Virus record (IMG/VR): IMGVR_UViG_3300045120_000224 | Coordinates: 1 to 53,666 of that record | Origin: a virus | Reading direction: 5' to 3' (one strand) | Length of the DNA stretch: 53,666 nt | Part shown: one piece after another, positions 2,607 through 45,709 of the stretch | Position numbering within the stretch: the first letter of the stretch is position 1 | Layout of the letters: every line of letters starts with the position of its first letter | Made by a program: the position numbers and the translations under genes | Notes under the pieces: generated by a model | Seen by the model: the letters and a program-made list of their open reading frames with translations, nothing else | What the model was told of the DNA's origin: nothing | The model's database searches: none

Positions 2607-3382
2607 TCGAGTGCCTCCATGATCGAGTCGAGACTGTCCTTGAAGTCGATCTCCTTGCTGGCCCTGGTCAGCTCGTCGATCTCGTCAGCCTCGATGTACC
2701 TGGCGATCGCGTCGTAGATACGGCCAAGCATCTGCTTGTCCGTGTCGTAGTGCGTGCCGAAGTACAGGCTCGCCATGTCGTAGCCGGTGACCAGGTCGTC
2801 CTTCACCAAGGTGAGGTCGTACCCGTAGCCGGCGTACTTGGCGTAGCGCCCGCACTCACGCAGCCCGTTGTACTGGCTGATGAAACCGTTGCGCCAGTTG
2901 GCGCGCTTGCTCGGCATCATCGGCAGCGGACCCATCGGGTCCATGCCGGGGAACAGATAGCCGCGCATGTCACGGTAGGTGTCGGACTCCAGGTCGTAGC
3001 CGACACCGAGCAGACCGAAGTCGAAGGACTCCAGCACCTGACCCAGGCTCGTCGTCGGGTGACCGTCGACCAGCTTGTACACCAGGTTCGTCTCCACCCC
3101 TGTGGGAGACGTCAGGCGCAGGCTGTTGGTGTGCCAGGTCTTGAACCCGTAACGCAGCCACCGTGCCCAGACACGGTCGAAGCGCTCCGGGAACGTGTAG
3201 CCCGAGTCGATCAGCCGCTGACCCACAGCGATCAGCACCTGGCTGGTAGGACAGAACAGGTCGACATCGGAGTGCGCGTTGCTCATCGCGTACGCATCCT
3301 CCGCCACGAGGGAGCCGGCCAGAAAGACCGGCTCCCCACGCAGCAGAGCACGGACGTCGGCGATGAGAGCCGACGCGGACAT
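2603..3382 (-). CDS. Nucleotidyltransferase-fold protein (Pol beta superfamily)
   Basis: A 259-aa protein. Residues 19-44 read VFLAGSLVAEDAYAM and then SDVDLFCP, giving the hG-S and D-x-D signature of the Pol beta nucleotidyltransferase fold, in which Ser fixes the triphosphate and two Asp bind metal. A third acidic residue may come from the ETNLVY or SFDFGLL strand, but I cannot assign it. The protein would transfer a nucleotide to an unknown acceptor. It is larger than minimal MNT-type antitoxin transferases and has an additional C-terminal helical region (residues 150-259) rich in Tyr. It shares one base with the upstream coiled-coil gene. Whether it acts on host RNA, tRNA or protein cannot be read from sequence. 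Confidence 0.7.
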   Translation of the reverse strand: MSASALIADVRALLRGEPVFLAGSLVAEDAYAMSNAHSDVDLFCPTSQVLIAVGQRLIDSGYTFPERFDRVWARWLRYGFKTWHTNSLRLTSPTGVETNLVYKLVDGHPTTSLGQVLESFDFGLLGVGYDLESDTYRDMRGYLFPGMDPMGPLPMMPSKRANWRNGFISQYNGLRECGRYAKYAGYGYDLTLVKDDLVTGYDMASLYFGTHYDTDKQMLGRIYDAIARYIEADEIDELTRASKEIDFKDSLDSIMEALE

Positions 3383-5117: not shown

Positions 5118-5282
5118 CTACATTGTGTACACCGACACGTCCGAGAATCGGACATACCCGGCAGGTTGTGGAGTGTAGTCACCCCCCCCCCTGACTACAC
5201 GAAGCTGCAGGTCAGAGCATGTGTAGACATGTAGTCACCTAACAGACTCCATCTTCTCCCCGAAGGTCTTACATAGTGTACA
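5118..5282. promoter_or_regulatory. Pair of 14-nt near-identical repeats
   Basis: CTACATTGTGTACA at 5118-5131 and TTACATAGTGTACA at 5269-5282 match at 12 of 14 positions. They flank the first part of the left control module. The first lies 24-37 nt upstream of the RHH start codon, where a promoter or operator is expected. They may be a second operator type, distinct from the TGTAGTCAC sites. Confidence 0.4.
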
Positions 5283-5430
5283 AAGATATGGAGTTTGTTT
5301 TTGCCCTGGACAAACCGGACAGTGTCGGGTGAAAACCAGGGCTGACCTGCGCAAACGTGTAGTCACCCCTAGGGTGACTACATTCGTTGCAGCCTGCAAG
5401 GAATATTGCACCCACCCCGGTGTCGGGTGG
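5173..5430. promoter_or_regulatory. Left copy of duplicated palindromic control module
   Basis: This non-coding stretch contains, in order: a 9-bp hairpin (5173-5181 with 5192-5200) whose loop is ten C residues; CTGCAGGTCAGAG (5205-5217); TGTAGTCACCT (5230-5240); a GTCTTACA block near 5266; a block 5342-5369 that matches 35050-35077 at 27 of 28 positions; an 11-bp perfect inverted repeat with a 3-nt centre (5358-5368 with 5372-5382); and GTGTCGGGTG at 5322 and 5420. The same blocks in the same order lie at 34871-35127. CTGACCTGC (5342-5350) is the inverse of 5207-5215. The module lies between the leftward RHH gene and the rightward giant gene, so promoter, operator or replication-origin roles are all possible. 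Confidence 0.65.
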
Positions 5431-5654
5431 ACGGACAGCAGCCGGCCTCGGCTGCACGAGGCAAACCAAACAAGGCTTACGCCAGATAGGACTGACGCGC
5501 TAACGCTTGAAGCAGACCTTGGTCTGCTACGCAACGCTTACGTTGCGATGTCACCTAGCCACATGGCTGTGTCATAAAGTCCGGCAATCTCATAAAACCA
5601 CATTGCGCATGCACACCTTGTCTTGTGACGATCCCTCGCTCAGTAGCCTGAGCG
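5412..5654. ncRNA. Second array of consecutive stem-loops
   Basis: The 679-nt stretch 5095-5773 has no supportable gene. Downstream of the control module it holds 5412-5417 with 5425-5430 (6 bp), 5438-5444 with 5449-5455 (7 bp), 5474-5476 with 5481-5483 (3 bp, weak), 5511-5518 with 5521-5528 (8 bp, 2-nt loop), 5531-5536 with 5541-5546 (6 bp, loop CTTA), AGCC/GGCT at 5557-5568 (4 bp) and 5637-5642 with 5649-5654 (6 bp). The three hairpins 5511-5568 are nearly back to back. The positions suggest a structured leader RNA or a protein-binding array. I see nothing further in 5655-5725. Confidence 0.45.
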
Positions 5655-6230: not shown

Positions 6231-6459
6231 GTAAAGGTATTCGGGCCCGCCGGGGTGGGCACGTCCTCGCCGGCTCTGCCTCACAGCGTACGACGTCGAC
6301 GTCCTGGCACGCCTTGCACGCCCTGGCGCGCAGGCCCGGGTGTAGGTGCCCGCCAGGGTCGTCGGGGCCCTCCAGCGGTCTGCCGCGCCGTCGCAGGCTG
6401 CCCCCGGACAGCGGCCGATACCGGTAGCATCCCGGATTAGTCGATCAGTGGAGGACGAC

Positions 6460-9400
6460 GTGGGCCGTTTCGACAACTCGGGGCTCCAGAAGTGGACGAA
6501 GATCGCCAAGGCCCCCGAGGCGCCGGCGGGTATGCAGCAGGCGGCGGTGGCCGCTCGCGGTTACGAGGCGGGCACCCCGCGGTTCGCCGACTCCAGGATC
6601 GGGCGGTTCACCTCGCAGCAGGGTTTCGTCGACACCGCGCGGAACTGGTACACCGGGGCCAACCGTGAGGGCACGAACAACGGCTGGGACACGCAGTTCA
6701 CCAACGACTTCATCAACGGGCAGAACGAGGCGGCGTCCAAGGGCCAGCTGAACACGTACTTCTCCCAGCCGGACGCCACCGGTGTGGTGACCTGGGATCA
6801 CAGGCTGGCCGACGGCACGCAGGCCCACTTCGGCGACGTGTTCAAGAACGGCCGCAAGGTCGACAACGTCTACCACACGTTCGGTCGTGACACCGGCAAC
6901 CTGATGATGAGCCAGTTCGTGCTGAGCGGCGACCAGAAGGCGCATGTGTTCAGCGCCTCGGACAACGTGGAGCGGCTCAACCGGGAGATCGTCGGGGTCC
7001 GCGAGCAGAACAACGTCGACATCCCGAAGGGGCAGGCCGCGATCCGCTTCCAGGACACGGTGGAGAAGACGACACGGCAGTTCGAGCGGGGTCACGTCGA
7101 CGAGGCGGCGGTGCTGGGCGGTGCCGCCGGTGGGGCTGCGGTCGGCACCGGTATCGGTGTGGGGGTCGGTGCGGCGTTCTTCGGTGTCGGTGCCCCCGTG
7201 GGTGCCGCGGTCGGTGCGGGGGTCGGTGCGGTGGCCGGTGGGATCGGCGCGTTCTTCAACAGGGACGCGCTGACCCAGCAGGCGGCACGGGCTTATGAGA
7301 TCACCGCGATGAGCAACCGGGAGAACGGTGGCAGCGCGGCGGTGGCCACCGGGATCCAGCAGTGGGCGGGGTTCTCCCAGAAGCTGACGTCCCCGCTGAG
7401 CAATCTGCTGCAGGGCGGCTATGACGCGACGCGGGGGAAGGGCGGTGACGGCGAGTCGGAGTTCTACCGGACGGACGCGAAGGGGAAGGCGCACACTCCG
7501 GCCTGGGTGAAGATCGCGGACGTCGGTGCGGCGATCGGTGACGGTGCGCTGGAGTTCGCCAGCCCCATCGGTGCCGGGCTCTACACGGCGCAGATGGGCG
7601 GTGTGATCAGTGGCGAGGTCGGGGAGCTGGCGATCACCAGGGGGAAGGCGTTCGACTACTCCCGTGGCGGGTTCGACAACATCTTCACCGACGACAAGGG
7701 CAACTTCTCCGCTACCGAGGGTGCGGCCGGCATCGCCAAGGTCGGCATCGACATGGTGCAGATGGGGATGGCCCGCGGGCTGCTGGGCCGGGTGCAGTCC
7801 GCCCGGGGTGCCGCCGGGCTCGAGGAGGTCGGTGCGCCGTCCGCGATCGGGAAGAGGCTCTACGGCGGTAGGGATGTGGCCGACCGGGCGCTGCCGGGCT
7901 GGCTCGGCGGCCGCACGGCGGCGCAGCGGGAGGCGCTGACCAACGGTGGGGCTGAGGAGATCCTCAAGGGGTTCCGGTATGTGACGGACAGCACCGGGAA
8001 GGTGGTCGGTAACCGGCGGGCCACGCTGTCCCTGCTGGCACCCAGTGAGCAGCTGGGTGCGCTGAGCACCCGGGTGCTGGCGCTGCGGGCCAGGGCGCGG
8101 AACGCGGGTGCGCTGAGCGCGGACGACTTCTACCGGGCGGCCACCGCGATGGAGCACGGTGAGCGGAGGTTCACCACGGCTCTGGTGAACGGGATGGGTG
8201 AGGGCTACGAGGAGGCGGTGCAGGCGGTCCTTGAGCCGTACTCCCACGACGACAAGGTCTCCTACGCCGACATCGGGAACAGCGCGCTGTACGGCTTCGC
8301 GGGTGGTGTCGGGATGGGTCTGGGCACGAACGCCCGGATGCCGACGGCCTCGGAGAGGCTGGACGCGAAGGTCAGGCTGGCGCACCGGATCCAGACCGGT
8401 GGCGCCGACATCGACGAGCGGCTGCTCGCGGGGATGAGCCTGAGCGAGAAGCAGGCCCGTGCCGCGATGTCGGGGATCGAGACGGCGACGGCGAGGGCGG
8501 CCTACGACAAGCTGGCCGACGACCACGCCGCCGAGCTCACCGCCGGCGTGGAGGGCGTGAACAGGCTGGCGGACGCGGTGAAGACGACGATCGCGGCCGA
8601 CCTGGTGCGGGTGGGCCCACGTACCGACGTCCCGTTCGTGATCACCCAGCTCGAGGAGGCGGGCCGTGTCGACTCCGCCGGGACGCTGATCGGTAACAGC
8701 CTCCCCTCCGACGCGGTCGCCTCCAGTGGTGCGCAGCTGCTGCGCAACTACGCGAACCGGATGACCGGTGTGGGCGAGCAGCTCACCACGTTGCAGCGTG
8801 ACCAGGCTGACAACGAGCAGGCGCTCGTCAACGACCCGGCCTCCGAGGCGCTGACCGCCAGGAAGGCGGAGCTGGCCACGAACATCACCCGCACGCAGGC
8901 GATGCTGGACCTCGGGGAGCAGTTCGCGGCCGAGATCGACGACCACGTCTCCCAGATGTACGCCACCAAGGCGGACCCGAACAGCATCGCGGCGGAGTCC
9001 GAGCTGCTCAACCACAAGATCCGGGCGGCGTTCAACCTCCAGGTCGACACGCTCGGTGGTGTCGTGCTGGACCGGGAGCAGAAGATGGCGCTGGCACGGG
9101 CCGTCAGCGCGGTGGTGACCCGTGACCCGCAGGACCAGTCGGGGTCCTACCAGGTGCTGGTGCCGCAGGTCTCCGCGAACCTCACGATCGCCAACTCCGA
9201 CAACGTGCTGCAGGTCTCCCACGCGATCCTCCCGGCGATCCGCGGCGACTTCGACGGGGACAAGATCCGGACGCTGAACCAGCTGATGCTCGACGAGACA
9301 AGTTTCGTCTCGGCCCGTGCCGGGATGCACTTCCTCGGGGCGGGCACCACGGTGAACGTCGGAGCCCCCAAGTACGAGAAGTGGATGGTGCAGTACCTCG

Positions 9401-12400
9401 CGGAGGGGATGCGCAGCACCAACGACGCGCTGCGGAACTTCGCCACCGGCACGCTGACCCACATCTCCGGAGCGGTCCGGGACCGCTACGACGGGGTGGT
9501 CGACGCCGGTCTGCTGAACCGGGTGCTCAAGGACTTCTACGACGCGGTGTACGCGGGCGACAAGGACGCCCGCTCGGTGCTGCTGGACGGGCTGGCCGGC
9601 TCGGAGGCCGGTGGCGCGATCACCGAGTTCGCCCGGTCCAACCTGAGCAACGAGTGGCTCTGGATCGACCAGCTCGTCCGGTCCTCCATGCAGGAGTACC
9701 AGGAGTCGTACGCCGCGAACCGCAAGCACTTCGGCCCGGAGCCGGGCGAGAGGCGCGGGCGGCCCACGAAGCGGGCCACCGCTGTGCGGGAGCGGCGTGC
9801 GGCACGGGCGGCCACCACCGGTCAGACGGTGGGGATCTGGCTCGAGGGCGACCAGATGTTCCGCAAGATGCAGAAGCTGCACTACACCACCCTGTCGGCC
9901 GCCGTGCGCAGCGCGGACGACGCCGGCGCCCGTGCCGAGCTGGCAGAGCTGGCGATGCAGTACGAGATGCTCGGCCAGGAGGCGTCCCAGTCCGAGCTGG
10001 ACCGGGTCCGCGGCAAGGACGACATCACCGGGCGGGTGCTGACCCAGCTGATGTACCTGGCGCGCAACGCCACCAGCCTCGACGACCGGCTCTCCCCGAT
10101 CCAGGCGATGGCGGTGATCGCCAACGTGCAGGTCACCGACTTCGACATCGCGGCGGACGGCGAGCTGTCCACGTCGGGCAAGCAGATCTCCCTCGCGCAG
10201 TCGCTGCTGAAGCGCTCGATCGCGCGTGACCGGGGCGAGAAGGCCGCGATCTACGAGGCCAGCCCCGAGCTGCAGGCCAAGCACGCCCGGCTGCGCTCGA
10301 TGACCTACGCCGACGGCCAGGGCGTCAAGGGCAGCGGGGTGAACGCCCAGCGCGCGTTCACCGAGGTGTTCGGCGCGATGCAGATGTTCATGCTGCTCGG
10401 TGACGACGCCGGCCCGCTCGGCCCGCACATGACGGTGGAGCAGTACCTGCGGTTCTACACCGAGAAGTCGGAGTCGGACCGGCGCAGCGAGGACTACAAG
10501 CTCCGCAACGAGGCCGCGTACCTGGGCCGCAAGACCACCACCGACCTGCCCTACTCCGTCCAGGAGCTCGTCGACGGCAACGTGTCCCCGTACCGGTCGG
10601 TGGTGGACTCCCTGATCGCGGTCGGCCACAAGCGTCTCGCCATCGACGCCGACGTCGCGGCGTCGAAGGACACCACCCGGCACCACCTGTCCGGTGAGTA
10701 CGCCGAGCAGCACTACCGGGTGTCCAAGCAGTTCCAGAAGGCGATCACCGACGCCCGTGCCGCGCTGTTCGAGTTCGGCCGGCTGTCCCCGCGCGACGAG
10801 CTGAGCGCGGAGACGGTGAGGCGGCTGCTGGAGAACAACCCGCAGTTCGCCCGGCAGGTGATGGCGCTGATCCCGAAGGCCGCCGCGGGCTCCACCTTCG
10901 AGATCCGCAACGACGAGGTCTACGTCGCCAACTGGGTCTACGACATGTTCACCTTCAAGGACCCCGCCGAGGCGGAGATGCACTTCTGGCGGTCCACGCT
11001 GCTGGCCGAGTGGAACGCCAGGGGCCAGAACAGCCCTCCGGAGACCGAGGACGACGAGGGCTGGGCGGAGCGGGACTACATGCGGCTGTCCCGCCGGATG
11101 CACCGGGTGCTCTACAACATGAGCCCGGAGCGTCAGCACGACCACGGGGTGCGGCTGGCGAAGTTCGTGACCGAGATGCGCAACGCCACCAGCCTCGAGG
11201 AGTTCCTCCGCTGGGTGAACACCACCCCGGGTGTCCGCGGTGACCAGGCGCCGCTGCTCGGGTGGGTCGACGACACCGCGCAGTTCGACGTGGACAAGGC
11301 GTCCGGCGGCTGGTCGACCGCACTGGCGGGCACGGAGCAGCGCGAGGCCATCGCGTCCCTGTCGCGCGGTGCCACGAACCTGGTCAAGGACATCGCGGAC
11401 GAGCGGGCCGCCTGGTCGACCGACCGTTCCGTGATCGCCGCCATCGAGCGGGTGATCAAGGCCGACGCGGGCGGCAACGTCAAGCTGGACGCCGGTGACC
11501 GGGACCTCTACGACGCCTTCGCCCGCTCCATCGAGAAGGCGGGCGAGCTCTCCAACGGGCTCGGCCCGCAGGCGATGATGTACCAGGTCGTCGGTGCGGT
11601 GCGCGGGTTCTACCCGCAGGCCCACACCAAGGGCAAGAACCCCGACTACGTGGAGCCGGCCGGCGCGTTCGACGCGCTGGCCGACGCCTTCGACTACACC
11701 ACCAACTACGAGCGGCTGCTGTCCTCGATGACGTCGCTGAACATGGACGCGGTCGGCGGCAACCTGTCCCAGGTCGCCAAGGACGGCGGCCGCACCATGG
11801 ACGACGCGGGCCGCCAGGTCTCCTGGGACAAGCCGACGCCCCAGGCGATGATCGCGCTGCTGAAGAACCCCGACACCCGGCCGCTGGCCCGTGCCGTGCT
11901 GTTCCCGCAGGTGATGGAGCGTACCGTCGAGGGGCGGCTGTCCCCGCAGCTGCTGGTCGGCAAGTCGCTGAAGTCGCTGCTCGACCGGTCCGCCTTCGAC
12001 AACCTGTTCGAGCGCAACGACAGCCTCTCCCACGACAACGCGCTGCGGTACCTGTCGGTGGTGGAGGCCGCCGCCCGCAAGGAGGGCGGCCACTTCTCCG
12101 TGCAGCGGGCCGTCAACGACATCGTGATCGCCCGGACCAGCGCCGCTGACCATGTACTGTCCACCTACGAGCTCGAGCAGATGGCACGCACCGCGATGTA
12201 CGAGGTCGCACAGATCCTGCAGGACGTCGGGAGCCTGGCCAGCGCACCGGCCGACCCCAACGCCCACCCGCTGGACACGGTGCTCACCGAGATCCGGGCC
12301 GCCCAGCGTCGGGTGCGGACTGCTGGGCGGCTCGGTTTCGAGGCCAAGGACCAGGAGATCACCGACTCGGTCCTCGAGGACCTGATCAACCGCCGCCTCG

Positions 12401-15400
12401 CGGAGATGGAGTCCGACAAGAACGACATCATCGCGGAGCGGGTGCCCGGGATGAGCGTGGCCGAGACCGAGCGGCTCGAGGCCCGGGTGCTGGCCGCCGA
12501 TGTGGACATGGACTCGTTCCGCCGGCGTGTCGAGGTGCTGAAGTCCGACGACGCCGCCGGCCTGGTCGTCGACATGTTCTCCTTCACCGGCGACCCGCAG
12601 ACCGACCCCGGCCGCCAGGGCGAGCTCATCGCCTACATCTTCTCGCGGACGGACACCTTCCGGTCCAAGTCCTCCTCCAGCCGGCAGATCATGATGAAGC
12701 TGTCCGAGCAGATCCAGGACTCCGGTCGCAACGGCCAGGTGGACCTGACCGACGACGAGTGGACCCACCTGTCGAACGCCGCGATCGCCGTGTACCTCGA
12801 CGAGACGCTGTCGATCGGCGGCATCTCGGTCCCGCCGTACCCGGACGAGGACCGCCGTGACGACCGCCGCTACTACGACATGTCGTTCTCCTACCTGGCG
12901 CAGCCGCTGCTGGACCGGAACAGCCCGCTGGTCAAGGCTGCCGTCGAGGTGCACCGGCTGGCCGGGCGCCAGGGCGACTACGCCGCGACCCCCACCGAGA
13001 TCAAGACGCTGCTGTCCCGCACCCTGTTCAAGGACTTCTCGGTCGGTGACTGGACCTCCGACATCCCGCGCTCCTCCATCGAGGCGAACCAGCGGCTCGA
13101 CTCCGCGGCCGCAGCCCAGGCCATCGCGATGGCCGGCAACTCCCCGAAGCGGCAGGCGGTGATCTCGGCCGCCACGAAGCGGACCTTCCGGGTGCCGGGC
13201 GACGACCTGCTCTCGACCGTCACGCTGTCCGCGCTGGACCTGTACCGGGGCGACTTCGACGAGGTCGCCGTCACCTTCCCCGACGGCACCGTCGGGTCGC
13301 GGCCGCTGGCGCAGCTCAACAACCGGTTCGCCCGCTCCGTGGTGATGCACTACCGGGACGCCGCCGACCCGGCCAACATCATCGAGGTCGACCTGCTGGG
13401 CACCGACCCCCGCCTCGGCCGGGTCTTCCACACCGACGACACGGCCTCCGCGTCCGGTCTCAAGGAGATCCATCTGGAACGACTCCAGAACGCGAAGGAG
13501 CGGATCGGCGTCGACGACGCCCGTGTCGTGGACATCCAGGTGAAGTTCTTCCACCCCGACTCCCAGCCGGTCGACACCGCCGAGGACCAGGCCCGGTCCC
13601 GGACCTGGTACAACAACCTGTTCTTCGAGGGCACGTCGTTCAACCTCGACGCCGACCGGCACAAGTCGCTGAACGAGACGCTCTGGTTCACCGAGGGCGG
13701 CATCAACCCGGTCTCGCAGGCCACCGCGCTGGACGCCAGCAAGCTCGGGAAGCCGGCGCTGCAGCCGGTGGAGACGGTGACCGCCGAGAAGCTGGCCGAG
13801 CTCGAGACCGACTTCGCCTCCGATCTCGGCGCGGTGCTGCGCGCCAAGACGAAGATCGCGATGACCACCTCGCTGGGGCTCGGCAAGCAGGGCAAGCTGG
13901 ACATCGAGTTCTACAACGCGGTCTACAAGGACATGAAGCTGCGGCACTTCGTGCGCGGCATCAGCAGCGCCACAGGCGAGAACCTTATATGGACCGCTGA
14001 TCAGGTTGTGGCCTATCAGCAGGCGAACCCGGGGCAGCCGCTGCCGATGAACGACCCCGCGCTGTGGGTGCCCAGCGACGACGTGCTGCGCACCATGCTC
14101 GGTGAGCAGGGCGACCAGGGCGTCGCCCGGGTCACGCCCGACTTCCTCGAGGTCGACCTGACCCGGGTCCGTGGCTACGCCGGGGTCAACGACAGGATGA
14201 AGCACCTGTTCAAGGTCGGGATGGACGGCGACACCCGGCCCATCGAGGAGACCCGGCTCTCCGCCGTCGCCCGCCAGGGCCTGCTGACGGTGCGCGCCAA
14301 CCTCGACTCCCGCACCCGTGCCCTGTACGAGACCAGGATCAAGTACTTCCAGGCGCTCAAGGACGAGATCAGCGTCGACCGTGCCAGCTTCACCGGCCGC
14401 GGCTTCGACTCGCAGCGGAACCTGGCGGCAGCGATCGCCGCCGGGGAGGCGGTGCTCCGCGCCGAGGACATCTCGATGGACTGGACCTCGGCCGGCATCC
14501 CGTTCTTCGGCCCGCGCACGCCGGGTGACTCGGCCATCAGCCGCCGGCTGCTCCAGGAGCTGGAGGCCGCGCTCCGCCCGGACGGCAACCGCAACGGGTT
14601 CATCTTCCGTGAGGGCGCGCAGGCCGACGCACCGACCGGGCTGATCACCGGGGAGTCCATCCACAACCTGAAGGGCGCGATGCGGGTGGCGCCCGGTGAC
14701 CTGGTGGTCGTCGAGCTCGACTCGTTCCGCGGCAACATGGAGCAGGCGCACAAGCGGCTGGACTGGCTGGCCGACCAGGGCGCCACCATCGTGCTCGGTG
14801 CCGCCGACGGCCAGGCCGACGTCCGCGCCGACTCCGCCGTGTTCCTGCAGTCGCTCGGCTACGAGCGGATCGCCGGTTCCGTCCACGTCTACCAGCCGAG
14901 CCTGACCACGCCACGCTTCCAGAACCTGCGTGCCCGTGCCTCCACCATGACGGAGGTCCGGGGCGTGTCACCGCGATCGCACATCGCGCTGCTGAACGTG
15001 ATGGGTCACGAGGTCGAGGAGAACTCGGCGTGGGTCGACTTCGACAACGAGCGCCTCGGCTCCATCGCTGAGACCGTCAACCTGGTGCCCACCGACTTCC
15101 TGATGGGCTTCAACGTCCCAGTCGCCCAGTACGGCAACGACTCGATGATCTCCCAGGTGCGGGCCCAGCTGAACGGGCTGAACGACGCCGAGGGCCGCAC
15201 CATGCTGCGCAACATGGCGAACGACCGGATCAAGGACAAGAAGGCACGCGCCGAGGCCGACATCGCCTTCGACTACCACTTCGACGAGATGCTCGACCGG
15301 ATGAACAACAACCCGGGCACCGTGCTCCCCCAGCCCGACGACACGTTCGGGCTCGGCTCGATGATCCCGCTGGTCGACACGATGGGCCGCATCGTGATCT

Positions 15401-18400
15401 ACCGGCACGGGATGAAGGCCCCGCACAGGTGGCGTGTCGACGAGATGACCGCGCAGACCCTCGACCGGGGTGGCGACGCGAAGAACGTGGCGGTGTTCCC
15501 CACCAAGCTGGAGTCCGCCGCCACGATCCACGATGGTCGTGTCATCGAGTTCAACCCGCGCTCCGGCTTCGGCCTGTCCGCCCGGCTCGAGATCGACCTG
15601 CAGACCCTTGGTGACAAGAAGGTCCTCGAGTGGAACGGGATGAAGTACCTGCTCACCCCGCGCCCGAAGTCGAAGGTGCTGCCCGACCACGGGATCTTCA
15701 CCAACTGGGACATCGACGGGATCGTCTCGCTCGACGACACGATGAGCAAGGAGTCGTTCGAGGGGATGGTGGACAACCACCGCAACGCCTTCGCCTACTT
15801 CGGCATCGACTTCACCGACGACATCGCCACCTTCCTCGGTGTCGACCACGCCACCGCCCTCGACATCCTGGACATGGTCGCCAACCGGGCGCCGAGGATC
15901 CAGCTCGCCGCCGCCGACGAGATCCTGAACAGCCGGCGGATCATGTCCACCGTGCTCAACCAGATCAAGGCCGCCGGCGTCCCCAACCTCGACGACGCCC
16001 TGGTCGACACGCTCGCGGACCCGACCAGCAACGAGGCGAAGATCACCGCCGCGATGCTGGTGTACCTGATGACCCCGGGTGCCCGGGTCTCCGACGTCAT
16101 CAAGTCCGGCGGCTTCAACGACGAGTCCTCCACCATCGACGCGCAGTCGATCCTGATGCCGCGGCTGTTCACCCAGGTCTTCGACAACGAGCCGCTCGGC
16201 TCCGACCTGCGCACCGAGATCAACGGCCGGCTCAACGCCCAGCTCCACAACCCGAACAACGACGGCACCGGCTACTCGCTGCGCCAGGACTGGGTGCTCG
16301 AGGTCCGCAACACGGACTCGAAGAAGAACATGTACGGGATGCTGCAGTTCGCCGAGGCCCACTCCGCCGGTGACAACCCGATCAAGAACGGGATGTCGTT
16401 CGACGAGACCGACCAGCAGACCGCCAGCCTGCACTCGGCCGCCATCGCCTACCAGGCCACCGGGGCGCAGACCGCCAACCTCTACGACCTGGCGAAGTCC
16501 CGGCTGCTGGCCGACTCGCTGCACGAGCCGAACATCAAGGACGCCAAGGACGGTGGCGTGTGGCGGATGCTCTCCGAGATCGGCTACAACGACAAGGGCG
16601 GGGCCGCGCTGTGGCGGGCCGCCACCCCGGCGGAGGCTATCCGCCGGGAGAACGGCCGCGACGCGGTGGTGCAGTTCCGGCAGGCGATCAACACCGAGGA
16701 CAAGAACGGCTGGAACAACACCACTCGGCGTGAGTACGCGGAGATCGCCACCAACATCATGCACGAGCTCGGCCTGCAGGGATCGCAGCGCGGTGTCGTC
16801 GACTTCTGGGTGCGCCAGCTCCTCGGGATGCCGTACGGCACCAACGAGCTGGGCGAGGAGGTCGGCCGCGTGAACGGCCGGTTCGCCAAGGAGGCGGCCA
16901 ACGACATCCTCTGGAACGTCCGCAACCGCTACCTTCCCGTCGTCGGTGCCGAGGTCCCGCTGCTGCACATCCATGACCTGCAGGCGATCTACCGTGCGGG
17001 CAAGTGGGTGCCGCGCTCCTCGATGGACGGCGACGCCTCGCCCGCCGGCAACTGGAACGAGTGGGTCGACATCTCGCTCGGCTCTGCGCTGACCTCCGAC
17101 AACCTGTTCGACCCGCTGTACCTGCTCGCGCTCGACGGGTTCATGCACACCTACCAGTCGGCCACCTCCTCACTGCTGGACCTCCCGGTCTCGTTCGACG
17201 CGATGAAGACCGCGCAGCTGATGGACCCCGACACCAACGCGCTGCTGGTCTCCATCAGCGACGAGACCAACCTGCTGGCCACCGACCCGATGCTGCTCGA
17301 CGTCACGAAGGCCAGCCTCGAGGCGATGATCGGCGGGCAGCGTTTCGCCGGGAAGCTCTACGCCAAGGCCGCTCCCGCCTCCGCGATCGCCAAGCGCCGT
17401 GACGCACGCCGCGAGTGGCGCAAGGAGTCGGGTGTCCCGGTGCCTGTCGACGTCTCCCTGAAGGACCTGCGCAAGAACGGCGCCCGGTTCACGCACAAGT
17501 CGACGGTGACCAACGCCTTCGCCCGCAGCCTGATCAACATGCGTGTCGGCACGGCGCTGCTCAACCCGGCGCTGTACGTCTCGATGGGCCCGGAGCAGTG
17601 GATCCGTGGCACGCTCGACCGGGCCGCGAACCTGATCACCGGTCAGTCGCTGGCCGTGCGCACCACCCGTGAGGGCGAGCTCACCTCCACCTCGCTGGCT
17701 GGTGCCGCCGCGAAGGTCGGTGACCGGCTGGCCGGCACGGCACTCGGTGAGGGCCTGGCGAACATGGGGCTGGAGATGGCGTACACGCCAGACCAGCTCG
17801 TCAAGTTCCGCCAGCTCGTCACCGTGCTCGGGCAGCGCAACGACTTCAAGGCGATGGTCTACAAGGACCTGATGTTCCTGCGGCCCTACGAGCCGGGTAT
17901 CGGCCGCATCGAGAAGTGGCTGGAGAACTACGCGAAGTTCGGCGCCAGGATGCAGGACCCTACCTGGGGGATGCGGGCCGACACCCTGGCCCGCCGCTAC
18001 CTCGAGGGCGCGCTGCAGGAGATCAACGCCACCCCGACGCTCAACGTGATCAGCAACGAGACGCTGATCGCCGCTCTCGCCACCGACCCGGAGTGGCTCA
18101 AGGACAACATGGAGGCCGCCCATAACGCGGGCACCCGCGCCGTGGCGCAGCTCCGGTCGCTCAAGCCGACGGTGCTGAGCCAGACGCTGCGCGGGATCTA
18201 CGAGCCGCTGTCCGCGTCACCGAACGCGGGGCTGAACTTCCTCGGCAACGTGGTGCTGAAGATGCCGATGCTGTTCAGCAACTACGGCATGAACGTGATC
18301 ACCACCGTCACCGGGCTGCAGGGCCTCGACCAGATGACGGCGGCGTTCATGACGGGTCGGACCAACGGGTTCAAGCACCCGCGCACCCTGCTCGGCCGGG

Positions 18401-20472
18401 TCCAGGCGAAGATGGCCGGACGGGAGATCACCCCCGACGACGACGCCAACTTCGACCTCGACTCGGTGATCGAGACCATCGACCTGTCCCGTGCGTTCAT
18501 CCGTGGCGGCCTGACCCACACAGGGCTGTTCGCCTTCGGCCTGGCCGCCGGCGGGCTCGGCCTGTCCGGTGAGGACGACGAGACGAAGAAGCGTCGCAAG
18601 CTCGCCGCGCTCCAGGGCGCGGGCTTCGTCTACGACCCGCGCGACGTGCAGAACGACTTCCGCAACAAGGACGCGATCTTCCTCGACTGGCTCCCGTTCG
18701 GGATGGACTCCTGGTTCCGGGTCACCGGCGAGGACGTGCCCGGCGGCGCCCGGTCCATGGCCCAGCTCAACTGGACCCTCAAGCAGTTCATCTCCCCGAT
18801 CATCGGGATGGAGAAGTTCTTCGAGACCGGCGACTTCCGCAACGTCACCTGGGGCTTCGAGGACGCCATCGGCTCCTTCCCGCTGATCAACACCCTGATG
18901 TGGGACGACGCCGTGCAGACCGCGCACGAGTTCGCGCAGATGGCGAACGACGAGGCGAAGCTCGGCGGGCCGCAGAACATGCCGATCGCGGCCGCGTTCG
19001 CCGCCAACGCGGTCGGCACGTACGAGCGGATGCTGTTCGAGAACTCGTTCATCAACCAGATCTACCAGGCCCGCGACCGCTACGACCGCGACCCCTACGT
19101 GCTGCCGCTGCGGGACAGCAGCGGTGCCCTGCAGCGTGACATCGAGGGCAACCCGCGCAAGCAGGACCTGGCGTTCGAGTCGTTCATCGACCCGGAGACA
19201 GGTGAGCTCAAGTCCGGCTACCTCAACCGCGACATCGACTCGGCCACCCTGCACGCGCTGACCGAGAACCGGGCCACGCTGGCTACCGTCGCCACCCTGT
19301 TCTCCGGGTTGAGCGGGAACACCCCGGACTACTTCCGCACCCAGATGCCGATAAAGGAGCGGGTCATCGAGCGGCCGCCGGTGAGCCAGGCGGAGGCCGA
19401 GACGCTGATCCGGAAGATCTCCCAGGACACCAGCGGCGGCCAGCCGAACCTGACGGCCGACGAGATCTCCTCGATCATGAAGGCCAACGGGCGCAAGGCC
19501 GGGGTCTTCCTCGACTACAACAAGGTCGACGCCCAGGCCGCCGCCTTCGCCAAGCAGGAGGGTCCGGCCGCGATGTCGGTCCTCGACGCGCAGGGCCGCG
19601 AGCTGCTCACCAAGGAGGGTGCGCACGGCGTGCTCCGCGGCCTGGCCAAGATGAGCGTCCACCTCGGTGACGCCTCGCTGCGCGGCATCCACATCCCGTT
19701 CAAGATGCGCGAGGAGATCCAGAAGGACTGGATGCGCGAGCTCATCCAGGACGGCGTGGACATGGGCCTGGACCAGACCAAGGCCACGTCCCGGATGAAG
19801 CGGCTGTGGTACGGCCCCATCTCCAACCCCAGCGTCCAGGGTCTCGGGGACATCCTGTGGTCCAAGGACATCTCCTACACCGACAAGATCAAGTACAACC
19901 AGCTCAACACCACCTACGTGATGGGACCGGACGGGCGGCCGTGGGCCACCGGCTTCACCCGTGACGGCCTGCTCGGCGCGCTCGGCGTCAAGCCGCTGAA
20001 GCGGGCGATGATCTCCGAGCAGGGTGCCACCGGCAACGACTCGATCCTGAACACCGTCGACTTCGTGAACAACATCAACACCGGAATGCGCGGGCTCGAG
20101 CTGATCGACGAGTCCCGCAACGTCCCGACCGATGTGGAGATCGGCAAGTCCATCGAGCAGGCCATCAAGGATGCGGCGTCCTCCGACTTCACCCCGTTCC
20201 AGCCGTTCACCAACCGGGGCGGTGGCGGCTTCGGCTTCACCCCGTTCCGCCACTTCGGCCGCTCCGGGTTCCGCCGGTTCGGCCGCGGTGGCGGCGGAGG
20301 CGGGTTCTCCTCGTTCCCCAACTTCTCCAAGATGTTCGCCCTGCCCAACGTGCGCGAGCCGTTCGGCAACGACATCCCGTTCATCAACACGACGAACCCG
20401 CTCATCCGCCGTGGCGATGTGCGGCGTGAGAGAGTCTGGTCCGAGCGAGGAAGGCTGAAGCAGTGGCAGTGA
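6460..20472 (+). CDS. Giant 4,670-aa virion-associated protein, candidate RNA polymerase domain
   Basis: Start GTG at 6460, with GGAGG 5 nt upstream; the frame is open back to 6346 but without a ribosome site. The gene is about 26% of the genome. Visible parts: an N-terminal region with a glycine-zipper segment at roughly residues 216-265 (repeated GxxxG with Val/Ala/Phe), typical of membrane-inserting ejection proteins; a DFDGD motif at residues 930-934 preceded by SHAILPAIRG, resembling the metal-binding loop of the catalytic double-psi barrel of RNA polymerases; a Rossmann-like stretch near 2745-2820 (GDLVVVELDSFRGNMEQAHK); LNPALYVSMGPEQW near 3702; and a Gly/Phe/Arg-rich C-terminal tail (4586-4617). 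It stands directly upstream of and overlaps the portal gene by 10 nt, so it is a late, probably packaged protein. Cluster EK Microbacterium phages are known to carry a gene of similar size. The polymerase assignment rests on one motif plus context and is an inference; a polyvalent ejected protein is the alternative. Confidence 0.8.
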   Translation: MGRFDNSGLQKWTKIAKAPEAPAGMQQAAVAARGYEAGTPRFADSRIGRFTSQQGFVDTARNWYTGANREGTNNGWDTQFTNDFINGQNEAASKGQLNTYFSQPDATGVVTWDHRLADGTQAHFGDVFKNGRKVDNVYHTFGRDTGNLMMSQFVLSGDQKAHVFSASDNVERLNREIVGVREQNNVDIPKGQAAIRFQDTVEKTTRQFERGHVDEAAVLGGAAGGAAVGTGIGVGVGAAFFGVGAPVGAAVGAGVGAVAGGIGAFFNRDALTQQAARAYEITAMSNRENGGSAAVATGIQQWAGFSQKLTSPLSNLLQGGYDATRGKGGDGESEFYRTDAKGKAHTPAWVKIADVGAAIGDGALEFASPIGAGLYTAQMGGVISGEVGELAITRGKAFDYSRGGFDNIFTDDKGNFSATEGAAGIAKVGIDMVQMGMARGLLGRVQSARGAAGLEEVGAPSAIGKRLYGGRDVADRALPGWLGGRTAAQREALTNGGAEEILKGFRYVTDSTGKVVGNRRATLSLLAPSEQLGALSTRVLALRARARNAGALSADDFYRAATAMEHGERRFTTALVNGMGEGYEEAVQAVLEPYSHDDKVSYADIGNSALYGFAGGVGMGLGTNARMPTASERLDAKVRLAHRIQTGGADIDERLLAGMSLSEKQARAAMSGIETATARAAYDKLADDHAAELTAGVEGVNRLADAVKTTIAADLVRVGPRTDVPFVITQLEEAGRVDSAGTLIGNSLPSDAVASSGAQLLRNYANRMTGVGEQLTTLQRDQADNEQALVNDPASEALTARKAELATNITRTQAMLDLGEQFAAEIDDHVSQMYATKADPNSIAAESELLNHKIRAAFNLQVDTLGGVVLDREQKMALARAVSAVVTRDPQDQSGSYQVLVPQVSANLTIANSDNVLQVSHAILPAIRGDFDGDKIRTLNQLMLDETSFVSARAGMHFLGAGTTVNVGAPKYEKWMVQYLAEGMRSTNDALRNFATGTLTHISGAVRDRYDGVVDAGLLNRVLKDFYDAVYAGDKDARSVLLDGLAGSEAGGAITEFARSNLSNEWLWIDQLVRSSMQEYQESYAANRKHFGPEPGERRGRPTKRATAVRERRAARAATTGQTVGIWLEGDQMFRKMQKLHYTTLSAAVRSADDAGARAELAELAMQYEMLGQEASQSELDRVRGKDDITGRVLTQLMYLARNATSLDDRLSPIQAMAVIANVQVTDFDIAADGELSTSGKQISLAQSLLKRSIARDRGEKAAIYEASPELQAKHARLRSMTYADGQGVKGSGVNAQRAFTEVFGAMQMFMLLGDDAGPLGPHMTVEQYLRFYTEKSESDRRSEDYKLRNEAAYLGRKTTTDLPYSVQELVDGNVSPYRSVVDSLIAVGHKRLAIDADVAASKDTTRHHLSGEYAEQHYRVSKQFQKAITDARAALFEFGRLSPRDELSAETVRRLLENNPQFARQVMALIPKAAAGSTFEIRNDEVYVANWVYDMFTFKDPAEAEMHFWRSTLLAEWNARGQNSPPETEDDEGWAERDYMRLSRRMHRVLYNMSPERQHDHGVRLAKFVTEMRNATSLEEFLRWVNTTPGVRGDQAPLLGWVDDTAQFDVDKASGGWSTALAGTEQREAIASLSRGATNLVKDIADERAAWSTDRSVIAAIERVIKADAGGNVKLDAGDRDLYDAFARSIEKAGELSNGLGPQAMMYQVVGAVRGFYPQAHTKGKNPDYVEPAGAFDALADAFDYTTNYERLLSSMTSLNMDAVGGNLSQVAKDGGRTMDDAGRQVSWDKPTPQAMIALLKNPDTRPLARAVLFPQVMERTVEGRLSPQLLVGKSLKSLLDRSAFDNLFERNDSLSHDNALRYLSVVEAAARKEGGHFSVQRAVNDIVIARTSAADHVLSTYELEQMARTAMYEVAQILQDVGSLASAPADPNAHPLDTVLTEIRAAQRRVRTAGRLGFEAKDQEITDSVLEDLINRRLAEMESDKNDIIAERVPGMSVAETERLEARVLAADVDMDSFRRRVEVLKSDDAAGLVVDMFSFTGDPQTDPGRQGELIAYIFSRTDTFRSKSSSSRQIMMKLSEQIQDSGRNGQVDLTDDEWTHLSNAAIAVYLDETLSIGGISVPPYPDEDRRDDRRYYDMSFSYLAQPLLDRNSPLVKAAVEVHRLAGRQGDYAATPTEIKTLLSRTLFKDFSVGDWTSDIPRSSIEANQRLDSAAAAQAIAMAGNSPKRQAVISAATKRTFRVPGDDLLSTVTLSALDLYRGDFDEVAVTFPDGTVGSRPLAQLNNRFARSVVMHYRDAADPANIIEVDLLGTDPRLGRVFHTDDTASASGLKEIHLERLQNAKERIGVDDARVVDIQVKFFHPDSQPVDTAEDQARSRTWYNNLFFEGTSFNLDADRHKSLNETLWFTEGGINPVSQATALDASKLGKPALQPVETVTAEKLAELETDFASDLGAVLRAKTKIAMTTSLGLGKQGKLDIEFYNAVYKDMKLRHFVRGISSATGENLIWTADQVVAYQQANPGQPLPMNDPALWVPSDDVLRTMLGEQGDQGVARVTPDFLEVDLTRVRGYAGVNDRMKHLFKVGMDGDTRPIEETRLSAVARQGLLTVRANLDSRTRALYETRIKYFQALKDEISVDRASFTGRGFDSQRNLAAAIAAGEAVLRAEDISMDWTSAGIPFFGPRTPGDSAISRRLLQELEAALRPDGNRNGFIFREGAQADAPTGLITGESIHNLKGAMRVAPGDLVVVELDSFRGNMEQAHKRLDWLADQGATIVLGAADGQADVRADSAVFLQSLGYERIAGSVHVYQPSLTTPRFQNLRARASTMTEVRGVSPRSHIALLNVMGHEVEENSAWVDFDNERLGSIAETVNLVPTDFLMGFNVPVAQYGNDSMISQVRAQLNGLNDAEGRTMLRNMANDRIKDKKARAEADIAFDYHFDEMLDRMNNNPGTVLPQPDDTFGLGSMIPLVDTMGRIVIYRHGMKAPHRWRVDEMTAQTLDRGGDAKNVAVFPTKLESAATIHDGRVIEFNPRSGFGLSARLEIDLQTLGDKKVLEWNGMKYLLTPRPKSKVLPDHGIFTNWDIDGIVSLDDTMSKESFEGMVDNHRNAFAYFGIDFTDDIATFLGVDHATALDILDMVANRAPRIQLAAADEILNSRRIMSTVLNQIKAAGVPNLDDALVDTLADPTSNEAKITAAMLVYLMTPGARVSDVIKSGGFNDESSTIDAQSILMPRLFTQVFDNEPLGSDLRTEINGRLNAQLHNPNNDGTGYSLRQDWVLEVRNTDSKKNMYGMLQFAEAHSAGDNPIKNGMSFDETDQQTASLHSAAIAYQATGAQTANLYDLAKSRLLADSLHEPNIKDAKDGGVWRMLSEIGYNDKGGAALWRAATPAEAIRRENGRDAVVQFRQAINTEDKNGWNNTTRREYAEIATNIMHELGLQGSQRGVVDFWVRQLLGMPYGTNELGEEVGRVNGRFAKEAANDILWNVRNRYLPVVGAEVPLLHIHDLQAIYRAGKWVPRSSMDGDASPAGNWNEWVDISLGSALTSDNLFDPLYLLALDGFMHTYQSATSSLLDLPVSFDAMKTAQLMDPDTNALLVSISDETNLLATDPMLLDVTKASLEAMIGGQRFAGKLYAKAAPASAIAKRRDARREWRKESGVPVPVDVSLKDLRKNGARFTHKSTVTNAFARSLINMRVGTALLNPALYVSMGPEQWIRGTLDRAANLITGQSLAVRTTREGELTSTSLAGAAAKVGDRLAGTALGEGLANMGLEMAYTPDQLVKFRQLVTVLGQRNDFKAMVYKDLMFLRPYEPGIGRIEKWLENYAKFGARMQDPTWGMRADTLARRYLEGALQEINATPTLNVISNETLIAALATDPEWLKDNMEAAHNAGTRAVAQLRSLKPTVLSQTLRGIYEPLSASPNAGLNFLGNVVLKMPMLFSNYGMNVITTVTGLQGLDQMTAAFMTGRTNGFKHPRTLLGRVQAKMAGREITPDDDANFDLDSVIETIDLSRAFIRGGLTHTGLFAFGLAAGGLGLSGEDDETKKRRKLAALQGAGFVYDPRDVQNDFRNKDAIFLDWLPFGMDSWFRVTGEDVPGGARSMAQLNWTLKQFISPIIGMEKFFETGDFRNVTWGFEDAIGSFPLINTLMWDDAVQTAHEFAQMANDEAKLGGPQNMPIAAAFAANAVGTYERMLFENSFINQIYQARDRYDRDPYVLPLRDSSGALQRDIEGNPRKQDLAFESFIDPETGELKSGYLNRDIDSATLHALTENRATLATVATLFSGLSGNTPDYFRTQMPIKERVIERPPVSQAEAETLIRKISQDTSGGQPNLTADEISSIMKANGRKAGVFLDYNKVDAQAAAFAKQEGPAAMSVLDAQGRELLTKEGAHGVLRGLAKMSVHLGDASLRGIHIPFKMREEIQKDWMRELIQDGVDMGLDQTKATSRMKRLWYGPISNPSVQGLGDILWSKDISYTDKIKYNQLNTTYVMGPDGRPWATGFTRDGLLGALGVKPLKRAMISEQGATGNDSILNTVDFVNNINTGMRGLELIDESRNVPTDVEIGKSIEQAIKDAASSDFTPFQPFTNRGGGGFGFTPFRHFGRSGFRRFGRGGGGGGFSSFPNFSKMFALPNVREPFGNDIPFINTTNPLIRRGDVRRERVWSERGRLKQWQ

Positions 20473-22466
20473 GCTACCAGACGGTCGGCGGGTTCGACGA
20501 GTGGTACGTCGACTACAACCCCAATGGCGGCCGCGACGGCAACCTCGACTGGCGTGGCTTCTCGCCACAGGCCGACGAGATCTGGCGCATGTGGCAGACC
20601 TACAAGCGCGAGATGGACCTGCGGGTCGAGAACTACGACATCCTCGAGATGCTGGCCGACGGCGAGGTGATCAGCCCGAAGGCCGACCTCCCCAACATCA
20701 GCAGCGGGGAGACGGCCGGGCTGGTCCGCCGGATCGCCCGCAACCTGGTGCAGAACACCCCGAACGTTGAGGTCATCTCCCGGTTCAACGACGACGACAT
20801 GAAGGGGATCTTCGCCCGGCACATCCTCGGCGCGAAGATCATCGGCTCCGACGAGTACTCCAACGACATGCAGCAGAACCTGTTCGCGTCGACGAAGACC
20901 AGCATCACCCTCGGGTTCGCCTGCGTCATCCCGGTGCTGCTGCAGGACGCGGCCGGCGGCTGGTACATGAAGTACGACACCATCCACTACCGCGACGTGT
21001 TCCCCGAGCCGGGGACCAAGGACGTCCGCTCCTGCTGCTCGGTGTTCGTACGCCGCTACCTGACCCGTGGCGAGGCGGTCTCCCTCATCTTCGACCAGGC
21101 GCCCGGCTGGGACCTCGACGCGCTGAAGCTGCTGGTCAAGAACCGGCCGCCGGCACGGGAGAACCAGAGCGTCGACCACCAGACGAAGAAGCACCACCAG
21201 ATCCCGGACGGCTACGAGATCATCACCTGGTACACCGACTCGGGTGCCGACTTCCTCACGTTCTCCGCGAACACCAAGATGCTGCTGCGCATCGAGAAGA
21301 ACAAGCACCCGCTCAAGCAGCACCCGGTCCACTTCCTGGTGCTCGAGAAGGACGAGCACCAGCCGCTCGGGAAGTCCCAGGTGGAGCTGCTGATCGGCCG
21401 CCAGGACTTCCAGGACCTGATGCTCAACGGTGCGATGAAGCTGTGGTACCGCAACATCAACCCGAGCATCATCGGCTACGGGACCGTCAACGCGGTGCCG
21501 AACCTGAGCCCCGGCAAGTACACCCAGATCTCCAACCCGAACGCGAAGATCGAGCCGTTCGAGGTGAACACCCAGACGCTGATGCAGTACTCCTCGATCA
21601 GCCAGCAGAACCTCGGGTCGATGGTCAGCCTGATCGGTGCCGCCGACCAGCAGATGGCTCAGTCCCAGGGCGGCAACGGCCAGGGCATGAGCGCCACACC
21701 GCAGGGTGTCGAGGCACAGCAGGCGATGGTCGACATCACCACGAACAACTACCAGAAGGCGATCGAGGCGTTCTTCAGCCACTACTGCTCCTACGCGCTG
21801 ACGATCTACTTCCAGGAGCTGAAGGCGGTGAAGAAGGTCCGGCCCTCGGCCGAGGCCCGGATCAAGCTGCTCGAGGCCGGGCTCGACCCGGAGCGGATCA
21901 ACCCCGACGGGTCCATCGAGGTGGACTTCGAGGACATGGCGACCGAGTACTGGGTGCGCTGCGTGCCCGGCTCGCTGGTCGAGATGGAGGACGAGAAGCA
22001 GCTCCGGATCCTGAACCAGCTGTTCATCCCGCTCTCCCAGGCGATGCCGGCGCTGGTCGCCACCCAGGACCCGGACCTCACCCGGCAGGCGGCCAAGGCC
22101 ATGCAGTACATCGTCGGCAAGCAGATCGAGCTCTCCGGCGCCACGTCCGCCAAGGAGCTGGGACTGCTCTGGTCGAAGGGCGACGTCGAGCAGGTCAACG
22201 AGCGCGACGCGCGCATCGGCGCGGTCGAGGACATGATCTCCGCGTTCAGCGGTGGGGCCGAGGCCGAGCTCGAGCAGAACGGCCTGGCCATCGCACAGAT
22301 GCAGCAGCAGATCAGCCTGATGGCCCAGAACCAGCAGATCCTGCTCGAGAAGCTAGGTGTGATGCAGCCCGGATCTGGAACCGGTTCTACTACAGAAGCG
22401 GAGACACCGGCTGAAGATGTAGCAGAACCCGCCGAAGAACCTACTGTTTACCCTGCCAGCGCCTGA
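20463..22466 (+). CDS. Portal protein
   Basis: A 667-aa protein from the GTG at 20463, with GGAAGG about 8 nt upstream, overlapping the giant gene's end. It has the composition and layout of podovirus portals: an acidic N-terminal region, a long central alpha/beta body with the GKSQVELLIGRQDFQDLMLN helix segment, Asn/Gln-rich helices around residues 380-430 (ISQQNLGSMVSLIGAADQQM), and a Gln/Met-rich coiled C-terminus ending in an acidic Pro tail. Twelve copies would form the vertex ring that admits DNA. The size fits the family (about 500-750 aa), and its place just before the capsid gene supports the call. There is no single diagnostic motif, so the assignment rests on overall pattern and order. 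Confidence 0.75.
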   Translation: MAVSYQTVGGFDEWYVDYNPNGGRDGNLDWRGFSPQADEIWRMWQTYKREMDLRVENYDILEMLADGEVISPKADLPNISSGETAGLVRRIARNLVQNTPNVEVISRFNDDDMKGIFARHILGAKIIGSDEYSNDMQQNLFASTKTSITLGFACVIPVLLQDAAGGWYMKYDTIHYRDVFPEPGTKDVRSCCSVFVRRYLTRGEAVSLIFDQAPGWDLDALKLLVKNRPPARENQSVDHQTKKHHQIPDGYEIITWYTDSGADFLTFSANTKMLLRIEKNKHPLKQHPVHFLVLEKDEHQPLGKSQVELLIGRQDFQDLMLNGAMKLWYRNINPSIIGYGTVNAVPNLSPGKYTQISNPNAKIEPFEVNTQTLMQYSSISQQNLGSMVSLIGAADQQMAQSQGGNGQGMSATPQGVEAQQAMVDITTNNYQKAIEAFFSHYCSYALTIYFQELKAVKKVRPSAEARIKLLEAGLDPERINPDGSIEVDFEDMATEYWVRCVPGSLVEMEDEKQLRILNQLFIPLSQAMPALVATQDPDLTRQAAKAMQYIVGKQIELSGATSAKELGLLWSKGDVEQVNERDARIGAVEDMISAFSGGAEAELEQNGLAIAQMQQQISLMAQNQQILLEKLGVMQPGSGTGSTTEAETPAEDVAEPAEEPTVYPASA

Positions 22467-34870: not shown

Positions 34871-35127
34871 ATGTAGTCACTGTAGTCACCTGTAGTCACC
34901 CCGGGGGTGACTACACATAACTGCAGGTCAGAGGCCCTTTTCGGACGATGTAGTCATGTAGTCACCTCAAAAGTCTTAACACTAAGAGCGAGTCATAGCG
35001 GTAGAAACTTTGGGGGTGACTACATGACTACATCTCTAAGAAAGGGCCTCTGACCTGGGCAAACGTGTAGTCACCCCCAAGGTGACTACAGGGGTGACTA
35101 CACGACCGACACGCCGGGTGTCGGGTG
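34871..35127. promoter_or_regulatory. Right copy of duplicated palindromic control module
   Basis: The non-coding region 34853-35206 carries nine full copies of TGTAGTCAC or its inverse (34872, 34881, 34891, 34907, 34957, 35016, 35066, 35082, 35094) plus two partial copies. They form nested inverted repeats: 12-bp arms 34891-34902 with 34904-34915; 16-bp arms 34925-34940 with 35041-35056; 19-bp arms 34948-34966 with 35015-35033 around an AT-rich 48-nt centre; and 10-bp arms 35066-35075 with 35081-35090. Blocks CTGCAGGTCAGAG, CTGACCTG-to-CACCCC and GTGTCGGGTG occur in the same order as in 5173-5430. It separates a leftward pair of tiny membrane genes from the rightward gene at 35207. The remainder (35128-35206) is leader with AGGA before the ATG. 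Confidence 0.7.
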
Positions 35128-43085: not shown

Positions 43086-43208
43086 TCACCTCCGTATGCC
43101 GTGAACGGGCCCGGTGAGGGGCTCGCACACGAGACACCGGATGCCCGGTACCCACTCACCGGGCTGACGCTCGGTGCAGAACCGGGCCCGGGTGTCGTGC
43201 CCGTTCAC
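43086..43208 (-). CDS. Tiny Cys-rich protein bounded by an inverted repeat
   Basis: A 40-aa frame from the GTG at 43208, overlapping the prim-pol stop as GTGA: MNGHDTRARFCTERQPGEWV, then PGIRCLVCEPLTGPVHGIRR. One Cys plus a CxxC and flanking His residues could bind zinc. The start and end of the gene lie in the two arms of a 13-bp inverted repeat. GTGA coupling and its Cys pattern support it; length limits confidence. Confidence 0.5.
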   Translation of the reverse strand: MNGHDTRARFCTERQPGEWVPGIRCLVCEPLTGPVHGIRR

Positions 43209-43211
43209 GGC
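43098..43211. repeat. Nested inverted repeat spanning a tiny gene
   Basis: Perfect 13-bp arms at 43098-43110 and 43199-43211, with inner 9-bp arms CCCGGTGAG (43110-43118) and CTCACCGGG (43155-43163). They enclose almost the whole 40-aa gene. The structure may hide the ribosome site of the next gene. Confidence 0.5.
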
Positions 43212-45437: not shown

Positions 45438-45476
45438 GGGAGCCGTCCTTTCATCTCTCGAATGAAAACGAACGGC

Positions 45477-45500: not shown

Positions 45501-45508
45501 ACCGCTCG

Positions 45509-45637: not shown

Positions 45638-45659
45638 GGAACCCTCCTCTCCTACCCGT

Positions 45660-45680: not shown

Positions 45681-45709
45681 CCGCCCCCGATCACGGGGTA
45701 GGAAGAACC

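Follow-up and report, generated by a model that had tools for sequence, protein, structure and literature searches.

RNA polymerases (RNAPs) of the two-barrel superfamily need, in addition to the barrel that carries the catalytic aspartates, a second barrel with two lysines. The RNAPs of the jumbo phages phiKZ and AR9 consist of several separate subunits and are not part of a giant virion protein; the beta' entries PDB 7ogp and 7s01 are taken here to represent such split jumbo-phage enzymes. YonO of Bacillus phage SPbeta is a single-chain, nonfused enzyme of 839 aa, and the virion RNAP (vRNAP) of phage N4 is a giant virion protein of a podovirus (~3,500 aa) with a T7-like catalytic fold. The crAss-like phage phi14:2, which is short-tailed, has a two-barrel RNAP in its large virion protein gp66 (2,180 aa; also PMC10770324). 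The nearest precedent for the protein described here is gp96 of Thermus phage P23-45, a proven RNAP inside a giant virion protein (PMC10770324). This tape-measure-fused virion RNAP has 5,002 aa, of which residues 327 to 1124 form the active RNAP (PMC10770324; PDB 8h2m/8h2n), and it transcribes the pre-early genes (PMC10770324). The lysine barrel comes first in gp96 and in the other single-chain enzymes described in the same study (PMC10770324).

The window analyzed here, the whole stretch of viral DNA with its 53,666 bases (related complete genomes are 53.6 to 54.9 kb), contains a giant virion-protein gene at 6346 to 20472 on the plus strand, which was identified by its open reading frame and by synteny and encodes 4,708 aa (~514 kDa). 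Residues are numbered from the first possible start, a GTG at 6346; a second GTG at 6448 is an alternative start. The gene lies directly 5' of the portal protein gene (20469 to 22466, plus strand; 54% identity to the portal of phage Burro), as the sequence-only reading had recognized, and this arrangement is syntenic in seven annotated relatives. The capsid gene is also downstream, and its product is 83% identical to the capsid protein of phage MissAmericana. Around the motif discussed below, the giant protein is ~20 to 33% identical to its counterparts in EK2 phages, Burro-like phages, and the Arthrobacter podophage MissAmericana, so the membership in cluster EK that had been assumed earlier was not borne out; the phage does not look like a member of that cluster proper. 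Related phages infect Microbacterium and Arthrobacter, and the Microbacterium relatives are podoviruses with short tails (PMC7302621). In the relatives, the giant gene is annotated as "hypothetical" or "tape measure," the latter in MissAmericana and Arete, and publications from 2020 to 2026 call the function of the protein unknown or "elusive" (PMC7302621, PMC8281081, PMC12022796, PMC13069448). In a PHROG scan of the whole protein, phrog_3405, a family of unknown function, matched residues 259 to 328 (E = 2.2e-5), and residues 263 to 304 (7132 to 7257, plus strand) form a Gly-rich, hydrophobic, membrane-like segment.

Several other features were seen in the window. A C-terminal block, Y-x-QLNTT...GPDG..WATG..R (residues 4509 to 4539; 19870 to 19962), is among the most conserved parts of the giant protein and is followed by a Gly/Arg-rich tail. 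Opposite the giant gene, an antisense open reading frame of 2,813 aa (6445 to 14886, minus strand) is most likely a by-product of high-G+C codon usage. A replication block on the minus strand (43205 to 50625) encodes a protein with a primase-polymerase-like N-terminal domain, a DUF5906 protein, a DEAD/helicase-C protein, and the phage's own DNA polymerase (48511 to 50625).

The giant protein contains the sequence DFDGD, preceded by SHAILPAIRG and followed by KIRTLNQ, which is encoded at 9247 to 9261 (plus strand) and is predicted to be a Mg2+-binding catalytic loop. The sequence-only reading had identified this motif correctly but had placed it at residues 930 to 934; it occupies residues 968 to 972 (D968, D970, and D972) when counted from the GTG at 6346 and 934 to 938 when counted from that at 6448, and the earlier numbering differs because another start codon had been chosen. 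By chance, 0.18 DxDGD motifs are expected in a random protein with the same composition, so a single occurrence is weak evidence when taken alone. The giant protein was considered over its whole length in an alignment of 28 sequences with a median pairwise identity of 25%, in which R-x-P...S...D-x-D-G-D is kept in every sequence; all three aspartates, whose invariance in homologs had been proposed as a check, are conserved in 28 of 28. Six annotated relatives retain the motif at ~20 to 33% identity. The first scans of viral contigs used patterns containing DGD, so the loci that they recovered do not count independently toward the conservation of the triad. Nine of the 28 homologs, however, were fetched from viral contigs by using a pattern from residues 2395 to 2600, ~1,400 residues from the motif, and so were not chosen for it; they are new and very divergent, and all nine contain R-x-P...S...D-x-D-G-D. 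Invariant positions number only 95 of 4,708 across the alignment, and no 5-residue stretch of the whole protein other than DFDGD contains four of them. Upstream of it, at 9121 to 9147 (plus strand), is the sequence R926-x-P928-x4-G933-S934, the proposed equivalent of E. coli beta' R425-A-P, in which R, P, and S are invariant in 28 of 28 and which is separated from the triad by 42 residues in most homologs and by 46 to 51 in the rest. The invariant residues of the putative aspartate barrel are R926, P928, S934, D968, D970, G971, D972, R991, and G993.

Profile searches connected this segment with RNAPs. A profile of residues 910 to 1010 built from 19 sequences ranked beta' chains of phage RNAPs above all other PDB entries (E = 0.07 to 0.15). 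A later profile (residues 905 to 1005), to which the homologs unbiased for the motif had been added, was searched against 177,635 PDB sequences with hmmsearch, and the top three matches were again phage RNAP beta' chains, with phiKZ (7ogp) at E = 0.0016 and AR9 (7s01/7s00) at about 0.04 (0.041 and 0.044), the closest sequence matches of the segment. These alignments cover ~55 residues from R-x-P, which itself aligns with the phiKZ and AR9 beta' sequences, through DFDGD. Lower matches included the P23-45 tape-measure RNAP (E = 0.77), RNA polymerase I RPA1, and cyanobacterial gamma. When 25 members of the family were compared with PHROGs, the main matches were phrog_2986 (13 of 25; best E = 0.0011) and phrog_2987 (12 of 25), both of which are named "RNA polymerase beta subunit." With profiles from elsewhere in the giant protein, no RNAP was matched in the PDB or PHROGs, indicating that the RNAP signal is specific to the aspartate segment. 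In HMM-HMM comparisons with YonO, gp96, gp64, and E. coli RpoC, the aligned region was at DxDGD and the match exceeded those of 20 column shuffles, with an extent of only 13 to 43 columns. Searches with single sequences were too weak to find an RNAP, as seen in the PHROG scan of the whole protein and in a phmmer search with 1,000 residues; a Pfam scan of the whole giant protein gave no family at E values up to 1, and the Pfam RNAP families PF00623 and PF00562 had no match in the genome. The corresponding search with PF00940 matched no control genome either and was not informative. A beta'-type, aspartate-bearing double-psi barrel (DPBB-A) at about residues 740 to 1000 (8563 to 9345, plus strand), with a helical insert at ~795 to 900, is thus well supported by sequence, within the ~55 residues described above, and the earlier suggestion of a beta'-type catalytic loop agrees with the profile match to phage two-barrel RNAPs. 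A reading of DFDGD as a Ca-binding, EF-hand-like loop was rejected on context.

Among the known systems, the nearest precedent is gp96, which is likewise giant, carries DFDGD in its N-terminal quarter (residues 779 to 783) with R-x-P-x4-G upstream, contains membrane segments, and has almost no similarity to other RNAPs outside the motif. The two differ in that P23-45 has a very long tail, whereas the relatives of the phage studied here are podoviruses, and in that a metallopeptidase domain is reported for gp96, whereas no Pfam domain was found in the giant protein at E values up to 1. YonO contains R-S-P...D-N-D-G-D-K, which agrees letter for letter with the EK2 homologs, but its HMM-HMM match with the giant protein extends over only 13 columns. 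The phi14:2 gp66 protein is without a DxDGD of this form and gave no HMM-HMM match above the shuffles. The catalytic fold of N4 vRNAP is unrelated to the two-barrel type, and no T7- or N4-type domain was found in the Pfam scan of the whole protein (E up to 1), in line with the earlier proposal of a polymerase unlike either type. The EK and Burro giant proteins have also been reported to show no similarity to N4 vRNAP (PMC7302621).

The architecture that the sequence-only reading had predicted, with two barrels within about residues 700 to 1300 and the lysine barrel first, was not recovered. An AF2 model of residues 480 to 1400 was poor (mean pLDDT, 67; pTM, 0.43) and contained no complete barrel; it showed a loose strand-helix-strand pattern in suitable order, with low confidence at the aspartate loop and at residues 1130 to 1220, and much of the modeled N-terminal third was helical. 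In this low-confidence model, a lysine barrel was not seen in residues 480 to 1400, and Foldseek returned nothing significant outside the family, its matches being helical noise or the family's own homologs. No lysine upstream of DFDGD is invariant among the 28 sequences. An N-terminal candidate for the lysine barrel (residues 142 to 188, aligned with gp96 524 to 588 at a score of 28.9) was rejected because the region has no invariant lysine and no match to a PHROG of an RNAP family.

Only four lysines are invariant in all 4,708 residues: K1762, K3091, K3100, and K3135. The first of these is part of K1762-G1763 (11629 to 11634). Two others form K3091-x6-G3098-x-K3100 (15616 to 15645, plus strand), which resembles GDK1065-x5-G-x-K1073 of the E. 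coli beta subunit and is its candidate counterpart; among 27 sequences, the spacing between the lysines is 9 in 23, 8 (as in beta) in 3, and 7 in 1. Given this invariant pair with beta-like spacing, residues 2900 to 3200 were picked for fold prediction, and the assignment as a lysine barrel was made before the outcome was known. The AF2 model of this region had a pLDDT of 78 and a pTM of 0.61. When it was compared with 350,542 PDB chains by Foldseek, ranks 1 to 5 were all RNA polymerase II chain B, which under the customary chain lettering is RPB2, the homolog of beta. These matches (E = 0.064 to 0.20; probability, 0.3 to 0.4) are not significant alone, and with no E value below 0.05 and TM-scores of ~0.2 they are an indication rather than proof. 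About 16 of the best 50 matches seem to be chains of the second-largest subunit, from eukaryotic or bacterial enzymes, an enrichment that was not seen with the 480-1400 model. Sequence profiles of the region gave no RNAP match in the PDB or PHROGs, and the lysines are not paired when the region is compared with RpoB by HMM-HMM alignment; what looked like a match to RpoB at residues 2887 to 3008 disappeared with a larger alignment and was not used as evidence. Most likely, as indicated by the model, the lysine barrel would be a candidate beta-type double-psi barrel (DPBB-B) at about residues 2900 to 3110 (15043 to 15675, plus strand) that includes K3091 and K3100. If so, the order of the barrels is reversed: in gp96 both lie within residues 327 to 1124 with the lysine barrel first, whereas here the aspartate barrel would come first and the lysine candidate, which had been expected before it, lies ~2,100 residues downstream. 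Just before this region, residues ~2745 to 2890 (14578 to 15015) contain GDLVVVELDSF...GATIVLGAADGQADVR...GYERI, a pattern conserved across the family that reads like a small alpha/beta domain.

It is possible, though unlikely, that the aspartate barrel is a real RNAP beta'-like domain whose lysine barrel is located elsewhere in the giant protein, on a different protein of the phage, or in the host enzyme. In favor of this, the RNAP of jumbo phages is divided among several polypeptides, sequence searches with the DPBB-B candidate matched no RNAP, and its Foldseek E values are at least 0.06. Against such a location, the candidate was named from its invariant lysines before the fold search, in which the top 5 of 350,542 chains then proved to be the predicted subunit, and there are just four invariant lysines in the protein, two of them with beta-like spacing. 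We consider it improbable that the protein is a two-barrel polymerase-like domain with another activity, such as DNA or primer synthesis, or a degenerate structural remnant. PolD has the same barrels and the same type of aspartate motif (PMC4996933, PMC10770324), and RNA synthesis and DNA synthesis are not distinguishable from sequence; however, the nearest profile matches are RNAPs, the phage has its own DNA polymerase gene as well as a primase-polymerase-like gene, and, unlike in a remnant, every catalytic position is invariant in a protein that is otherwise ~25% identical. Equally little weight is given to a nonenzymatic role as a tape measure or an internal ejection protein, with DxDGD binding a metal or having arisen by chance. 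The tape measure annotations of the MissAmericana and Arete homologs, the chance expectation for DxDGD, and the largely helical modeled N-terminal third would allow this reading. However, a tape measure is not expected when the related isolates are short-tailed (PMC7302621), all 28 sequences keep the motif together with an upstream R-x-P and S (42 residues away in most), and the top profile matches are RNAPs and not Ca-binding proteins.

The giant protein is therefore best explained as a virion-borne, DNA-delivery-associated RNAP of the two-barrel (cellular-type) superfamily, a reading that we regard as likely and that keeps the central idea of the sequence-only reading, which was probably right, but not its architecture. 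In this RNAP, residues ~740 to 1000 would form the beta'-like barrel, whose D968, D970, and D972 would coordinate the catalytic Mg2+, with R926 at the active site as in other two-barrel members, and residues ~2900 to 3110 would form the beta-like barrel with K3091 and K3100 as its two catalytic lysines. The two halves of the active site would then come from a single chain or from two fragments produced by its processing. The protein may be ejected with the DNA and span the cell envelope during DNA entry, as the Gly-rich hydrophobic segment at residues 263 to 304 suggests, and the polymerase could, by Mg2+-dependent RNA synthesis, transcribe early genes during their entry into the cell. In Burro virions, a protein band of ~250 kDa has been ascribed to the homolog gp27 (PMC7302621), which has a predicted mass of 488 kDa. 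Speculatively, a cut near the middle of the Burro protein would yield two pieces of ~240 to 250 kDa, one per barrel, that would fit this band. We lean toward the more specific arrangement, by somewhat better than an even chance, in which a two-barrel RNAP is contained in a single virion protein with reversed barrels ~2,100 residues apart, possibly cut into beta'-like and beta-like fragments of ~240 to 250 kDa.

A second set of observations concerns noncoding repeats and hairpins. The word GTAGTCACC occurs in 13 copies in the window, compared to 0.3 expected, in two noncoding clusters (5175 to 5381 and 34882 to 35101) and at 24809. The clusters occupy the gaps that precede a leftward operon and, at 35207, a rightward gene, and a 28-nt composite element, GGGGTGACTACACGTTTGCGCAGGTCAG, recurs in both. 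The first cluster, which together with the hairpin TGTAGTCACCC-CTA-GGGTGACTACA (5358 to 5382) spans 5170 to 5385, is a candidate early-promoter or origin region. In the close relatives L009, L010, L015, L008, and L013, this word or a slight variant of it is repeated within the 2 kb that precede the giant gene. In otherwise divergent podophages, the ~0.9-kb gap before the leftward operon contains a hairpin, CTTCCCATG-CGAGA-CATGGGAAG, with a conserved core (L003, 11487 to 11507; L004, 11288 to 11310; L005, 11226 to 11248; L025, 12672 to 12688; L118, 1948 to 1964); the EK2 version has the arms GCGTAACCGG/CCGGTTACGC, and the hairpin is absent from the window. The GTAGTCACC repeats and the hairpins of the relatives could be promoters of the phage polymerase or, equally, replication-origin repeats or operators. 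A separate hairpin, CGCTCAG-TAGC-CTGAGCG (5637 to 5654), is identical in DoTi (L007, 11907 to 11924) and MissAmericana (L002, 12517 to 12534) and has a terminator-like position.

The giant gene, at 13 kb a quarter of the genome, is among the largest genes of actinobacteriophages, and a cellular-type RNAP inside its product would explain the location of the protein in the virion. A virion-borne two-barrel RNAP is already known, and this family would be a further lineage, alongside P23-45 and the crAss-like phages, in which a giant virion protein incorporates an RNAP; a reversed barrel order, if true, would be new, would define a new kind of injected phage RNAP found across actinobacterial podophages, and would bear on the way in which the two halves of every cellular RNAP were first joined. 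The short-tailed phages of soil bacteria that carry the giant protein probably inject their own transcription enzyme with their DNA, and, if this is true, phages easily grown on Microbacterium foliorum hosts would be available for studying transcription coupled to DNA entry.
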